25,738 nucleotides of DNA, taken from positions 1 through 25,738 of the IMG/VR virus record IMGVR_UViG_3300020473_000113; one strand, written 5' to 3'. Positions 235-7,269 of the stretch are shown here, piece after piece (within the stretch, counting starts at the first letter, position 1; each line of letters opens with the position of its first letter). The notes beneath the pieces are model-generated. The model saw only the letters and a program-made list of their open reading frames with translations, was not told where the DNA came from and made no database searches. Source of the stretch: a virus. The position numbers and the translations under genes were made by a program.

Positions 235-597
235 CTATTCTGCTGGTTTATCTGGTATCTTGTTAGTGTATGGTATACCACCAGCAGGAGTGATAACATA
301 ACATTCAATAAAATGATCAGCATCAACAGTCTGTGTTGATAGTGGAAACCAATCACTTGCTGTATCAACTGCTACACCCTGACCATCAAAGTCATAGAAT
401 GTATAGTGTTCAGCAAATACCTCACCAATCTCATCTTCTGGGATACTATCCTCATAGAATGTCTTTACTGTTGCTTGCTTGGCAGCAGCAAGAGTAAACC
501 AGTTGACATTATTAATGACTAGTACATATTTATTTGTTGATGCAGCATACTGTTTGACAATCTCATACAGTCGCTGTGCTCCTAGTGATACTAACAT
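235..597 (-). CDS. Small protein of unknown function at the end of the fibre operon (120 aa)
   Basis: Not recognised. The ATG overlaps the previous stop by one base (TAATG), and GGAG (608-605) lies 7 nt upstream, a good ribosome binding site that supports this start. The protein is acidic, especially EDSIPEDEIGEVFAEH near residues 49-64. It begins with a probable helix (LGAQRLYEIVKQYAA) and a hydrophobic strand (KYVLVINNV), and has aromatic patches such as HYTFYDFDG and DWFPL. No transmembrane segment, signal peptide or catalytic motif was seen. As the last gene of the unit, next to a chaperone-like gene and before the terminator, it could be a small accessory structural or assembly factor. 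Confidence 0.85.
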   Translation of the reverse strand: MLVSLGAQRLYEIVKQYAASTNKYVLVINNVNWFTLAAAKQATVKTFYEDSIPEDEIGEVFAEHYTFYDFDGQGVAVDTASDWFPLSTQTVDADHFIECYVITPAGGIPYTNKIPDKPAE

Positions 598-1574
598 TAT
601 AATTCTCCGTTTTCAATAGCATCTAATAATGCTTCAATATAATCTCTATTTACCTTTTCATCATCAGCTTTCCATGATTGTGCTAACTCTGTAGCACCCT
701 GTAAGTTTTCAGCAGGTCCATCAGATGATAGTTTAGTACGGAATGGACTGACCATAATACGCATTGAACTATTTGTAGCAGCAAGATTTTCATTACCAGT
801 AACATCCTCAACACATGATGTTCTTGCCATCATATAGAATGTCATTCGTTGAGCCAACCCTTGTAATGTATTCTCAGTGACTTTCCAGAAATGGTATGAA
901 CTGGTAAGATACTCAGAAGTAGTACCTTGATCACCAACATTGTCTGTAATTATCTGATCAACATCCAATGTCTTTCTCTTATTATACTCATCAGGAGTAA
1001 TTGGAAGTACTATATCATATGGTGTTGCAGCATTTTGTAATACAGGAATGTCTCTAATATATGATCTATACTTTTTCCACAATAGTTTATCAGCATCAGA
1101 TACAGGAGAATCCTCTAGAAGAACATAATCACTATCTTGAAGCATAAACCTTCTCAAAAGTTTAAGTTTATTCCAAGTTACTGAATTGGTACGAGCATAC
1201 TCAGTTTGTATTGCTTTCTCATACCTATTCTCTTCTACATCTCTAAACTCAATAAACTTTTCTTTTATTTGAGTAGCAAGTTGTTCAACATTATATTCAC
1301 TAGTACCAGCAGGATCAAACTCATATGATATCCACTTACCACTATTGTCATTAAAATTCTTCTTATACTTATTTCTGTGTATAGAATACGTACCATCTTT
1401 CCTAACTAAAAAAACTTCAAGCTTATCTTTGGCACTATCCCACAATGGGTATAAAAGTGGACTAATGTCAGTCTCCCAATAGGAATCAGTAATATCTTTA
1501 CGAATACCCTGATATTGGATACTTCGTTCAATCGCATTTAAATAAATGTCTGTATTTTTAGTTGCTATGCTCAT
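597..1574 (-). CDS. Tail assembly chaperone-like protein (325 aa)
   Basis: Residues about 131-192 carry the pattern of the phage tail assembly chaperone family (Phage_tail_APC type): KLLRRFMLQDSDYVLLEDSP, then LLWKKYRSYIRDIP, then IVLPITPDEY. The family signature is an SD[WY]...D-x-P segment, then W-x-x-YRxxLRD-[IL]-P and a short Pro-rich tail. Members often lie beside tail fibre genes and are thought to help fibre or tail assembly. This protein is long for the family, with about 130 extra residues before and after the motif, both probably mixed alpha/beta. The ATG lies one base after the stop of the 1897-aa gene. No clear Shine-Dalgarno is seen, so it is probably translated by re-initiation. 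Which fibre it serves is inference; the upstream adhesins are the obvious candidates. Confidence 0.78.
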   Translation of the reverse strand: MSIATKNTDIYLNAIERSIQYQGIRKDITDSYWETDISPLLYPLWDSAKDKLEVFLVRKDGTYSIHRNKYKKNFNDNSGKWISYEFDPAGTSEYNVEQLATQIKEKFIEFRDVEENRYEKAIQTEYARTNSVTWNKLKLLRRFMLQDSDYVLLEDSPVSDADKLLWKKYRSYIRDIPVLQNAATPYDIVLPITPDEYNKRKTLDVDQIITDNVGDQGTTSEYLTSSYHFWKVTENTLQGLAQRMTFYMMARTSCVEDVTGNENLAATNSSMRIMVSPFRTKLSSDGPAENLQGATELAQSWKADDEKVNRDYIEALLDAIENGEL

Positions 1575-1575
1575 T

Positions 1576-4500
1576 TTAAAATGCTTTTATTAAATATTTA
1601 GCACGATGGTATCTAGTAATCAATGCTATATTCTCCTGTGGTTGTGCAGATACAGAAACTGAAACTGGTGTTGAAGATGATAATGCAAATGTACCATCAT
1701 TAAATCTAATATTAGATTCTTTAGCAGTTACAGTTTTCCTTATCAAATTAACACCTGTGTCAGGACCACATGCACCTTCATTTCCAGGTAAGTATGCATC
1801 TATAGATGGTATGAATACATTTTGAGTAACTTCACCATATTCTATACCAAATTGACCAAATCCCCAATTATCTTCAGTAGCATTACTATTATCACCAGCA
1901 TTAGATGGTCTTGCTTGTTTAACTAAAAGATACACCCCACTTCTTCTTGCAGGATTATTCTCATCAAGAGTAACTTCAGAAGTAAACCAAGCACCATTTG
2001 CACCATCTGAAGGTGTTGCTATCTGTTGGATATCCTGATAAGTATCACTATCAGCAGAAGTATTAAACTTCAACTCTAATGGTTCTTCTGGTGGTTGTCC
2101 ACCATTACTACCAGTACCTCTAATAATATTAAATACCATCTTATTAGCAGCAGATAAATCCAATGGTCCTATTCTTAAGAATCTATCACCACCACCAGAG
2201 AATCTAAAATAATTATTTGTTGGATGACCAGTTGGTACAGTTGAATGATTTGCTAATGCAGGAAATGTTCCTGTAGCAGGAGTAATCATTTTAATATCTT
2301 CACTTGCACTATGCCACACATCAGCTTTAGATGCTGTTGATCCAGTATCTGCATCTGACCAATCTTCATTTGCAGTACCAAATCCAGGAACATCATATAC
2401 ACGACCTGCTGGTGATGTATAACCAAGTATTTGTCTTCCTCCTTCTACTACTGGATATGCAGCAACTGCAACATAACCATCCGTTCCATCACCAGCAGGA
2501 GTTGGTGCAGCACCAGCACCAGCAGCACCTCTTGATCCAACACCAACAGTAACTGTGCTTTGAATATCATCACCAGTAATAGTGAAATTTACTCTTGCAC
2601 CAGCACCACCACCGCCACCACTTTCGTTAATTTGACTTCCTTCGTAAAAAACTTTAAATCTTATCCATCCATCACCATCTCCACCTTCAGCATCATTTGC
2701 TGGTATACTACCTGCATTTAAGTATGACAATGATCCAGCACTTCTTCCAGCTTCTCCACCATCACCAGATCCAGTATTTACGTGACCTGCACCTGCCTGT
2801 CCTCCAGCACCACCATCACCAGCAGAACCTGTTCCGAAGCCACCGCCTCCTCCTCCACCGCCACCTGCGGTACAACCTGAGGAACCACCTGTTCCACCTG
2901 AAGTTCCACCTGGTGCAATAGCAGCTTGTATGAAAACTGAATTCTGATTTGGTAAACCATTACCACCATTCCAACAAGCATCAATAATACTACCACCATT
3001 ATTACCACCACCAGCAGCACCAGCACCACCGCCTCCTCCAGCTCCCATAATCCATGTTCCAGAAGCAGTTTTTAATCCTGAGGATCCACCACCACCAGCA
3101 CCAGAAGAACCATTACCCCATGCACCTGATCCTCCACCACCACCATTTGTTACACCTATACCACCACTTGTAGCACTTTCACCAGTTGTACCATCATTAA
3201 CATTCTGACCATCTTGACCTTTCTTTCCTAAAATCCATGTGAAGCTGGTAATAAACTGTGGTGCTGGATAATCACTCTCAGCTCTACCAGTCTTAGCAAA
3301 CATCTTCCTACCTTTACCACGGTCACCACCATAACCATCTTGTCCAGATCCAACACCAGTAGTAATTCTATTATAGTTATTAATACCGCCTGGTGGTAAA
3401 ACTGTAGGGCAATTACCTTTTAAATTTTTTGCTCCATGACCACCAGCACCACCAGTCATTTCAATTTCAATGTAATCAATATTTGATCCTTGAGGTATTC
3501 TAGGATCTGACATTGCATTATAACTTCCATTGGAAGTCATTGGTGCTCCACCTGCATCAGGATACCAGAAATTACCTGAACCAGGAGTTGTTGTATATGA
3601 TCCAATTCCACCACCACCCATAGCAGTTCCATCTCCTGCTGGTGCGAACCATCCCATTCCACCAGCAGATGTTTGTTCATTAGCAACACCACCTGTAGTA
3701 CCTGCTGGACCTGGATCATTTACACTAAAGTTTACACGATCATCATTTAATAATGCAGAAGGATTCCCATCACTGGCAGTAATAGTAACAACTCCACCAG
3801 CTCCACCACCTCCACCAGATTCTCCTTTTGTTCCTCCTCTACCACCTTGAAGTGTAATTGTATAGTCAACACTATTTCCACCAACAGGCAATGAGAACGT
3901 AGCAGTAACATTTCCACCATCACCACCATCAGTGTCAGATGAACCACCTCCACCGCCTGGTGCAACCATCTGATAACTATACATTGCTACAGTATCAGAT
4001 GCTGCAAGATTCTTTGAAAAACTATTACTTCCCTTTACTTCCCATATTGCATCACCATACTGATCAGGATCAGTAGAATATATTGGTTTACCACCTATTA
4101 CAGTTGGTAAATTATCAATAGACCAAACATTCGGATCTGGTGTAGTAGTAACTTCTTCATAATATCCTGCTGCCTTTTTAAGGGTGATATCACCACCAGC
4201 AGCAGTATTATTAGCAGGAGCTCCATTTTCAGGAATATATTTAAATGTATTAGTATTCCAACCATCACTTATTATTTGATGATCTCCATTATATTTCGCT
4301 GGTTCACCAGTTGTACCTGATCCTTTAACACTTATCCAATCACCAATCTCCAATCCATGATCGTCAACAGTAACTACAGTAACTTCAGTACCATCACTTG
4401 TAATAGTATCAATTCCTATTAATGGTGGCTCTGTAATCTTATACTTATAACAACCAGTTGATTGCTGCTTGACTTCTATTTCACTACCACCACTAAGTGT

Positions 4501-7269
4501 AAGCTTAAGATCATAGAGACGACAATATCCATCACCACTACCACTAAGAGGATTACCATCTGTTACAAAATATAGATCAGTCAATGAAATAGCACTACTA
4601 TTATAAAGAGTTAATGCTTTTCTACTATCATCTGCTGCTGTACCAGTTGTAGTATTACCTCCATTATATCCAAAGTCACCTTTACCATCATATCCAATTA
4701 CAATCTTAGTGACATTAGCAATAGGAGTACCAAATGTTAACTTACTCCATTTAGTATCGGTAGTAGTAAGTTCATAGAAATCTCCAGCATCACCATCAAA
4801 TGCATTTATCATTGGATAATACTCATCCAATGGTGCTTTAGTCGCATCATCCTGATCACTATAAACAGGTAAACTACTGTTACCAAAATCATCTTTCAAT
4901 GATCCACCAGAATATTCTAATACTCTATCACCGATACCAACACTATTACCATAAGTTGTCATGGCAGAACTAACTGGTCTAGTATCCATCAACGCATGAG
5001 AATGACCAAGAGCAGTGCCATCAGATGTATCTGGTTCAAAGTCTTCAATACGACCTTTAATATTGGCGTAAGTTGTGGTAAATCTATCTACACCACCTAC
5101 ATTATTTTCGTACTGTTCATCTGCCTCACTGTGTAATAGATAATGTTCGTGTTCTGGTGCTCTATTAAAAATATATTCTTCTATAGGACCAATTTTAAAC
5201 TTCTTCTCACCAGTCAAATATGAAGTAATTAATGTTTGAACACCACCATAACCACTAGTAGAAACATCACTAACATCAAAAAATTCCTGTGCATCATCAA
5301 TAACATCTTTTGATATTGTCCACTCACCTCCAATACCTCCCATTTCAGCTGAAGATCTTGCTCCAACTAAAGGTGATCCAGAACCAGAAACACCTTCACC
5401 CATACCAATTAGTTTTCTATCTCTATAATCTGGTACTTTAAACTTACCTAATAATTGTGGATAATCTGCACTATTATATGACTTTCTTATCTTAACCCTT
5501 GGATGTCCTGAAATTGTACCAGCAGTATTAGTATATGCTGGAAGAGTAGTCCAATCAATGTTCCACTGTGTAGTGGTAAATCCACTATTATTTCCTTGTG
5601 ATATTAAACTATCAACAAAATGAGGAGAATCCTGTAATGGTTCATCTTCACCATCAATGATTTTAAAAGCTCCATCAATTCTTATAGAAGCGAATCCTGC
5701 ATCTCCAGCAGAATTAGAATAATTCTCAAATTCTATCTTATGAATTGTTCCTTGAGGTACTGATCCATCGGTTACAGGAACCTTTGTATCTATCTCTGTC
5801 CATCCTGTACCATGATTTACCCAATTTAATTGAGTACTAGATGTAGGCCAAATCCTTGACCTAGTATTACCATTACCAGAAGGATCATATATTTCTACTT
5901 TATGATTATATTCAACAGTAGTATCTGGTGTCCATGTCAATCCACCTGTTCCAGTTGCTCTTCCTACTGTTTCATCTTCATCAAATCCACTTGTTGCTTG
6001 TTGTATTGTGCCAGGTGATGTAAGTTGGCTACTCCAAGTTCTTGTACCACTATTAGAAATTGGTGTCATTACCACCCCAGTACTACCAGCAGTAAAATCC
6101 AATGATTCAACAAGTGTTTGACCATTAGATAGATGAGCTATAACATTAAATCTGTAAAGATGTTTACTATTACTATTTGGTTGTGGTCCACTATAACCAT
6201 TAGTTCTAACCCAACCAGGTATACTACCTACTGGAAACGGTCTTGGTATTGCTTTTCTATCTATAGTATTTTTTACAACAGTACAACTACTTGGTAATGT
6301 GGCATTTGCACCGAATGATGTAGTAGTAGCAGGAATATTTTTCACATGCCAGTGTATTCTGTTAGGACGTGACATATTTTGCAAATACACCTCCCATGTA
6401 TCCACACTAACACCATCAGGAAGTCCACTTAGATTACCCCATGATAATTCTGGACTCCAATTCTCAGCATCAGTATATTGATAATATCCTGTAGGATTTG
6501 GATTTACTATTCCAGTTTGAGGATTAGGTTGTAAAGAAGCTGGATCAGACTCAGGAACAGTACCATAATACTTAACAGGAAGAATTGGATATGGATCCTG
6601 AGTTTGAATTAAAGTACTAGATGAAATACTCCAAGTAAGATCTACAGTGTCTGTTGCTTGACCAATAATAAATCTATGTACTGTTGTATCTTTACCAGCA
6701 GTTTTTTTATCTTGATATAATGAAGCATATTCTAAAACTACTGGAATATCTTTTTTAAAAATTGGATTACTATTAGCATCAGTACCAGCAGGAAAATCAC
6801 CTAAACCACCAACAAATGTTACTGCTGCTCCATTAGGTACAACACGTGTTTTGAATACATTACCACCAATAGTATCTACTTTCTGATACAGTTCTGCATA
6901 TAAATTACCATCATCAACAAATGTTCTATAGATTGAACCAGGAGTAGTAGCTTGAGTGAATACTATAGAATTATTATTAACAGGATTAGTCAGACTATTA
7001 GAATCTGTTGAATCATTATAAGTATTTTGTATTTTATCATATAAGTTTGGATAATCAGTTATGTTATACTCTGCTCCATCACAATATAAAAATCCCTTCT
7101 GACAATAATGAGGATCCTGAAGTGATTGATTTGGTGGGGCAGTATAACCTGTCTCTGTCTTATCTGTAGTCCACTGATTAGCAAGTACAGGAACAATAGC
7201 TCCTATGGCGACATATGAACCTTGCTTATCAGTATAAAAATTCTTGTACGTATTTCTATATGTTGCCAT
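1576..7269 (-). CDS. Large tail-collar adhesin with PEBP-like and glycine-rich domains (1897 aa)
   Basis: Regions by residue: 21-80, first half of a collar domain (GFLYCDGAEYNITDYPNLY, 59-77); about 263-392, PEBP/YbhB-like; about 428-542, a beta-sandwich ending ASIRIDGAFKI; 595-625, second collar half (ADYPQLLGKFKVPDYRDR); His-x-His pairs H707/H709 and H756/H758; about 820-940, a second copy of the beta-sandwich, starting NAFDGDAGDFYEL; about 945-1030, an HGLEIGD...YNGDH...NTFKY module; about 1105-1605, glycine-rich; about 1623-1822, jelly-roll-like; end, RAKYLIKAF, matching the other two collar proteins. The ATG overlaps the previous stop by one base and no strong Shine-Dalgarno is visible, so coupling is likely. 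It is much longer than an ordinary collar protein. The likely role is as a receptor-binding tip or large fibre (inference). Confidence 0.88.
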   Translation of the reverse strand: MATYRNTYKNFYTDKQGSYVAIGAIVPVLANQWTTDKTETGYTAPPNQSLQDPHYCQKGFLYCDGAEYNITDYPNLYDKIQNTYNDSTDSNSLTNPVNNNSIVFTQATTPGSIYRTFVDDGNLYAELYQKVDTIGGNVFKTRVVPNGAAVTFVGGLGDFPAGTDANSNPIFKKDIPVVLEYASLYQDKKTAGKDTTVHRFIIGQATDTVDLTWSISSSTLIQTQDPYPILPVKYYGTVPESDPASLQPNPQTGIVNPNPTGYYQYTDAENWSPELSWGNLSGLPDGVSVDTWEVYLQNMSRPNRIHWHVKNIPATTTSFGANATLPSSCTVVKNTIDRKAIPRPFPVGSIPGWVRTNGYSGPQPNSNSKHLYRFNVIAHLSNGQTLVESLDFTAGSTGVVMTPISNSGTRTWSSQLTSPGTIQQATSGFDEDETVGRATGTGGLTWTPDTTVEYNHKVEIYDPSGNGNTRSRIWPTSSTQLNWVNHGTGWTEIDTKVPVTDGSVPQGTIHKIEFENYSNSAGDAGFASIRIDGAFKIIDGEDEPLQDSPHFVDSLISQGNNSGFTTTQWNIDWTTLPAYTNTAGTISGHPRVKIRKSYNSADYPQLLGKFKVPDYRDRKLIGMGEGVSGSGSPLVGARSSAEMGGIGGEWTISKDVIDDAQEFFDVSDVSTSGYGGVQTLITSYLTGEKKFKIGPIEEYIFNRAPEHEHYLLHSEADEQYENNVGGVDRFTTTYANIKGRIEDFEPDTSDGTALGHSHALMDTRPVSSAMTTYGNSVGIGDRVLEYSGGSLKDDFGNSSLPVYSDQDDATKAPLDEYYPMINAFDGDAGDFYELTTTDTKWSKLTFGTPIANVTKIVIGYDGKGDFGYNGGNTTTGTAADDSRKALTLYNSSAISLTDLYFVTDGNPLSGSGDGYCRLYDLKLTLSGGSEIEVKQQSTGCYKYKITEPPLIGIDTITSDGTEVTVVTVDDHGLEIGDWISVKGSGTTGEPAKYNGDHQIISDGWNTNTFKYIPENGAPANNTAAGGDITLKKAAGYYEEVTTTPDPNVWSIDNLPTVIGGKPIYSTDPDQYGDAIWEVKGSNSFSKNLAASDTVAMYSYQMVAPGGGGGSSDTDGGDGGNVTATFSLPVGGNSVDYTITLQGGRGGTKGESGGGGGAGGVVTITASDGNPSALLNDDRVNFSVNDPGPAGTTGGVANEQTSAGGMGWFAPAGDGTAMGGGGIGSYTTTPGSGNFWYPDAGGAPMTSNGSYNAMSDPRIPQGSNIDYIEIEMTGGAGGHGAKNLKGNCPTVLPPGGINNYNRITTGVGSGQDGYGGDRGKGRKMFAKTGRAESDYPAPQFITSFTWILGKKGQDGQNVNDGTTGESATSGGIGVTNGGGGGSGAWGNGSSGAGGGGSSGLKTASGTWIMGAGGGGGAGAAGGGNNGGSIIDACWNGGNGLPNQNSVFIQAAIAPGGTSGGTGGSSGCTAGGGGGGGGGFGTGSAGDGGAGGQAGAGHVNTGSGDGGEAGRSAGSLSYLNAGSIPANDAEGGDGDGWIRFKVFYEGSQINESGGGGGAGARVNFTITGDDIQSTVTVGVGSRGAAGAGAAPTPAGDGTDGYVAVAAYPVVEGGRQILGYTSPAGRVYDVPGFGTANEDWSDADTGSTASKADVWHSASEDIKMITPATGTFPALANHSTVPTGHPTNNYFRFSGGGDRFLRIGPLDLSAANKMVFNIIRGTGSNGGQPPEEPLELKFNTSADSDTYQDIQQIATPSDGANGAWFTSEVTLDENNPARRSGVYLLVKQARPSNAGDNSNATEDNWGFGQFGIEYGEVTQNVFIPSIDAYLPGNEGACGPDTGVNLIRKTVTAKESNIRFNDGTFALSSSTPVSVSVSAQPQENIALITRYHRAKYLIKAF
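2450..3965 (-). repeat. Glycine-rich (polyglycine-II-like) region of the 1897-aa protein
   Basis: Residues about 1105-1605 are dominated by Gly runs such as APGGGGGSSD, GESGGGGGAGG, MTGGAGGHGAK, WIMGAGGGGGAGAAGGG and a run of nine Gly at residues 1469-1477. The runs are separated by short non-Gly segments, some ending in hydrophobic or aromatic strands (IDYIEIEM, FTWILGKK). The gp38 adhesins of phages S16 and T2, and the ALK glycine-rich domain, fold such sequence into packed polyglycine-II helices. The DNA here is a low-complexity CC-rich tract on the plus strand, but Gly codons are mixed (GGT, GGC, GGA), so it is not a simple repeat. Confidence 0.8.
6090..6483 (-). other. PEBP/YbhB-like domain encoded inside the collar protein
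   Basis: Residues about 263-392 follow the order of conserved motifs in the PEBP/YbhB family: NWSPELSW (family: N-x-SP-x-LxW), then HWHVKNIPATT (family: HWVV-x-N-[IL]-PA-x-T), then NGYSGPQP (family: GYxGPxPP), then KHLYRFNVIAH (family: HRYxFxVxA). The pocket residues H306 and H370 and the GYSGPQP loop (358-364) are kept. The DPDAP motif that normally precedes HW is replaced by LQNMSRP, so anion or lipid-head-group binding may be altered. PEBP proteins normally stand alone, bind phosphate-bearing ligands or regulate kinases. Inside a tail protein a ligand- or receptor-binding role is a guess. Confidence 0.7.

Follow-up and report, generated by a model that had tools for sequence, protein, structure and literature searches.

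PEBPs, found in all domains of life, are for the most part known as stand-alone proteins. The bacterial YbhB/YbcL branch (TIGR00481; PDB 1fjj, 1vi3 and 1fux), like the wider family PF01161, carries the collinear blocks NxSPxLxW, HW..NIPA, GYxGPxP and Y.F.V.A. Free-standing PEBPs also occur in phage records and viral contigs, and where examined they were cargo or transduced ybcL/ybhB genes and not tail parts; the family phrog_5139 collects YbhB-type phage proteins of this kind (ybcL in DLP12-type prophages, and ybhB), all separate genes in the cases looked at. A second set of relatives is provided by the collar or short tail fibre proteins of Kyanoviridae, in the Synechococcus phages S-RSM4 and S-WAM2 and in Marine virus AG-345-P14. 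These share homologous collar and C-terminal parts, and the same tail-gene neighbourhood, with the protein described here; however, their collar loops measure only 43, 142 and 47 residues, respectively, and their whole records lack any PF01161 match. Below we compare both groups with a 1897-residue tail-collar protein encoded in the window (the whole 25,738-nucleotide stretch of uncultured viral DNA that was analysed), whose collar loop carries a PEBP-like domain.

A PEBP-like domain nested in a tail-collar protein

The earlier note had pointed to four PEBP motifs following one another in the expected order, namely NWSPELSW (residues 270–277), HWHVKNIPATT (306–316), NGYSGPQP (357–364) and KHLYRFNVIAH (369–379), with the DPDAP block replaced by LQNMSRP, and all of these are present as described. 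PF01161 matches residues 267–379 (window 6133–6471, minus strand) above its curated cut-off of 24 bits, whether searched on the segment alone (35.9 bits, E=1.1e-8), on the whole protein (30.5 bits, E=5.3e-7) or in six frames of the window (35.5 bits). An HMM trained on cellular sequences only, namely YbhB and YbcL of E. coli and seven plasmid-borne bacterial or archaeal PEBPs (nine in all), scored the native segment at 39.9 bits, while none of 5000 shuffled copies exceeded 10.9 bits; across the phage loci it matched this ORF and its orthologues only. Consistent with this, profile–profile alignment of ten viral sequences with the nine cellular ones (hhalign) returned a probability of 97.4% and E=1.5e-11, with NxSP..W, HW..NIPA, GYxGPxP and Y.F.V.A as collinear blocks. 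Judged by these statistics, the resemblance is not a product of chance, and the suspicion that the motif order might be coincidental can be set aside.

Searches of the PDB with the viral profiles retrieved three or four chains, PEBPs alone and each individually weak, the best being YbcL (1fux, E=0.01–0.016). Both 1fux and 4beg were linked to the family through a YbhB search, while 2evv and 4r7k, deposited as hypothetical proteins, are judged PEBP-like by their motif matches and on background knowledge. The segment also scored 27.2 bits (2.7e-6) against TIGR00481 and matched phrog_5139 weakly (7.7e-4; best member 5e-6); because the TIGR00481 score lies below the curated cut-off of 57.75 bits, assignment to that family was rejected. 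In every family member the PF01161 profile is covered only to position 100–106 of 135, and the C-terminal part (~106–135, the last quarter) is therefore missing. The case for homology rests on such sequence profiles, which together show the segment to be a divergent, C-terminally truncated homologue of YbhB/YbcL-like PEBPs. A scan of genome contigs with the viral alignment found no cellular relative and hence no candidate donor.

The collar domain itself is split. When the flanks on either side of the insert were joined, the PF07484 score rose from 32.3 to 43.6 bits and the match extended to profile position 55. The insert, of about 500 residues, lies between LYCDG...QNTYN and FKVPDYRDRK and holds the PEBP-like domain, the two collar halves standing 549 residues apart in the window protein and 373–614 apart across the 16 PEBP-carrying proteins described below. 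Since the collar is split and regains score once its flanks are joined, the profile evidence places the domain in a large insert within the collar loop of a T4-type tail-tip protein. The domain thus differs from YbhB and YbcL in not being free-standing, as well as in its lost DPDAP block and missing C-terminal quarter.

Table 1 Features of the collar protein and its gene neighbourhood (window positions)
Feature	Residues	Position	Strand	Basis or remark
Tail-collar/short-tail-fibre-type protein P0001	1897 aa	1576..7269	-	ORF; PF07484 and PF01161 above cut-off; matches to phrog_30655 (virion structural protein) and phrog_4924 (short tail fiber)
Phage Tail Collar, first part	55–91	6997..7107	-	PF07484, profile 10–45 of 57; 27.8 bits, cut-off 24
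N-terminal lead-in of PEBP-like domain (YYGTVPE...)	225–262	6484..6597	-	Partly conserved in relatives; viral alignment
PEBP-like domain	~263–398	6076..6483	-	PF01161 match, cellular-PEBP HMM, profile–profile comparison
NWSPELSW	270–277	6439..6462	-	N270, S272, W277 16/16; P273 15/16
HWHVKNIPA	306–314	6328..6354	-	His306 5/16; Trp307 16/16
GYSGPQP loop	358–364	6178..6198	-	16/16; aligns with cellular GYGGPCPP-type loop
HLYRFNVIAH	370–379	6133..6162	-	His370 7/16; Tyr372 16/16
Variable module after PEBP-like domain	399–545	5635..6075	-	Missing from relatives L011 and L025
Collar last strand, FKVPDYRDRK	610–619	5413..5442	-	Adjoins first part in S-RSM4 and AG-345-P14
Second variable module	786–940	4450..4914	-	Missing from relatives L011 and L025
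Long glycine-rich stretch, C-terminal half	1131–1640	2350–3879	-	In all relatives
Adjoining collar protein	482 aa	7269..8717	-	PF07484 above cut-off; phrog_4714 tail collar protein
Adjoining short-tail-fibre-type protein	502 aa	8717..10225	-	phrog_4591, full length
Tail-fibre-like protein, most of window	5095 aa	10229–25516	-	
Tail-assembly chaperone-like gene, directly after collar protein gene		597–1574	-	phrog_4697 match
Small gene, next after chaperone-like gene		235–597	-	Weak match, unknown family phrog_4883 only

All genes of the window are of the tail type. The 5095-residue fibre-like protein contains several repeats of the type NxHGLxxGDxIxLxxxSLxFxCxxDxxxxxxxYPR, and a search for internal duplication among the modules of the 1897-residue protein returned nothing significant. 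The isolates S-RSM4 and Sf-CH3 differ from the window in the gene that follows the collar gene, having there a gene annotated as dioxygenase or 2OG-Fe(II) oxygenase (with more nearby) in place of the tail-assembly chaperone-like gene.

Relatives and the ancestral pocket

Scans of IMG/VR brought the family to 16 distinct proteins, the window's included, in each of which the domain lies within this collar insert; the recurrence that the earlier note had raised is thus borne out by at least 15 proteins of other uncultured phages. Identity to the window protein within the domain is 49–81% for the first nine relatives, and four more distant ones (L009, at 18.2 bits, L194, L205 and L008) fall just below the PF01161 cut-off. 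The domain was absent from 50,697 phage records searched by tblastn with two different members as query, nor did PF01161 match anything in the closest four isolates or records. Weak matches in the cyanophages S-ShM2 and S-BM1 (tblastn, E 3–5) were dropped, as they belong to DUF7243/phrog_682 proteins without a PEBP match. Rough Nei–Gojobori values on short stretches put dN/dS between close pairs at 0.3–0.7 for the domain core and, in all but one pair, at 0.08–0.20 for the N-terminal part of the collar.

The alignment of the 16 members separates an invariant set of residues from a variable pocket. Invariant throughout are N270, S272, W277, W307, I312-P313, W353, the GYSGPQP loop and Y372. For six members the invariance of the loop is subject to bias, since GYSGPQ or LDFTAG was the motif through which they were found; the loop is equally invariant in the ten found by other patterns or through other parts of the protein. 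His306 aligns with the PEBP pocket histidine (His86 of RKIP), His370 with His118 and Tyr372 with Tyr120, a correspondence between RKIP and bacterial PEBPs that rests on their common motifs and on background knowledge. The earlier note's remark that both pocket histidines are kept holds for the window copy and fails for the family, in which position 306 is H, L, Q, N or C and position 370 is H, N, T or V (histidine counts in Table 1). The position of the DPDAP aspartate (Asp70 of RKIP) is L, M or I in all 16. The RKIP pocket includes, in addition, the C-terminal residues Leu180, Tyr181 and Leu184 (PMC8539980). As far as the alignment can show, the canonical PEBP anion pocket is not maintained in this family.

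Possible roles of the domain

Receptor recognition in the general sense is a reasonable expectation from the position of the domain in the virion protein. Given the lack of conservation at the canonical pocket positions, the domain has probably been put to a new use, as a module for attachment. We favour, with fair though not full confidence, a divergent truncated PEBP homologue that sits in the collar insert and most likely serves as a displayed adhesin module without a working anion pocket. Anchored at the tail tip by its collar, the protein would present the PEBP-like domain outward on the insert, most likely as part of the adhesin's recognition surface; a conserved face made up of the GYSGPQP loop, Trp307/Trp353 and Tyr372 might then contact a host surface molecule, or pack against neighbouring modules that do so. 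A more specific version, in which a PEBP fold captured from a cell became a receptor-recognition module with a new site on the GYSGPQP/Trp/Tyr face after the anion pocket was lost, is less probable, and we put it forward tentatively.

The main rival to the adhesin reading is that the PEBP-like domain acts as a structural spacer or folding element while other modules (for example 399–545, 786–940 or the glycine-rich part) bind the receptor. The failure to conserve the canonical pocket would fit such a role, and two relatives, L011 and L025, dispense with both variable modules yet keep the PEBP-like domain, as they might with part of a scaffold. In contrast, the collar loop varies in length from 43 to about 610 residues and the domain is less conserved than the collar, both of which are more usual for exposed parts, although either point weighs little in one direction or the other. 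On balance we regard a spacer role as rather unlikely.

Far less probable is the proposal, which takes up the lipid-head-group recognition suggested in the earlier note, that the captured PEBP still binds a phosphate or lipid head group of the host through its ancestral anion pocket. The window copy on its own would be compatible with it, having both His306 and His370 along with GYSGPQP and Tyr372, but across the family the aspartate is lost without exception, the two histidines survive in only a minority of members and the C-terminal part, which in RKIP contributes more of the pocket, is gone. Lipid-head-group recognition is thus unlikely, since the residues that it requires are not conserved.

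The fold was approached with AlphaFold and Foldseek, the check that the earlier note had suggested. Prediction from five viral sequences yielded a model with a mean pLDDT of 47.3, for which Foldseek listed FN3/Ig-like folds, none of them significant. With cellular PEBPs added to the alignment the mean pLDDT was 56.7, still of low confidence, and two PEBPs became the best PDB matches (1vi3, YbhB, E=4e-4, TM 0.43; 3n08, E=9.7e-4, TM 0.37), followed by FN3 domains at 0.06. As PEBPs were already in that alignment, the result amounts to a compatibility check and not to independent proof, and the expectation of a PEBP top match was realised under this condition alone. A viral structure library gave no match at E<=0.001. 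That the domain is instead an Ig/FN3-type beta-sandwich whose PEBP-like motifs are coincidental, as the non-significant list from the first model might suggest, is scarcely credible given the profile statistics, the shuffles, the collinear blocks in 16 proteins and the low pLDDT of the model that produced the list.

Host and significance

The cyanophage label attached to the locus by the earlier note is supported indirectly, through relatives, the window itself offering tail genes only. The nearest isolates are Synechococcus phages. One relative, on the 83-kb contig L209, encodes a T4-type gp6 that is 68% identical to that of S-RSM4, and shortly upstream of its giant fibre gene lies a CpeT-like antenna gene (phrog_488; L209:2295–2852), which points to a cyanobacterial host. 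Because these two genes coincide, the L209 relative is, by gene content, very likely a cyanophage, and the window phage, a marine one, is probably a cyanophage as well. On the fragments searched, psbA (PF00124) was not found.

A literature search, with most subscription journals outside its coverage, returned no paper linking PEBPs with cyanophages or phage tail fibres. If the role in a virion adhesin is correct, the conserved PEBP-derived module would bring a further fold into the repertoire of phage-tail recognition domains and would mark the collar-domain loop as an uptake site for large inserts; were the reading with a new site to hold, the receptor-binding domains of phage tails would gain a new class. 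Residues 225–400 provide a defined fragment with which to probe the host targets of marine cyanophages.
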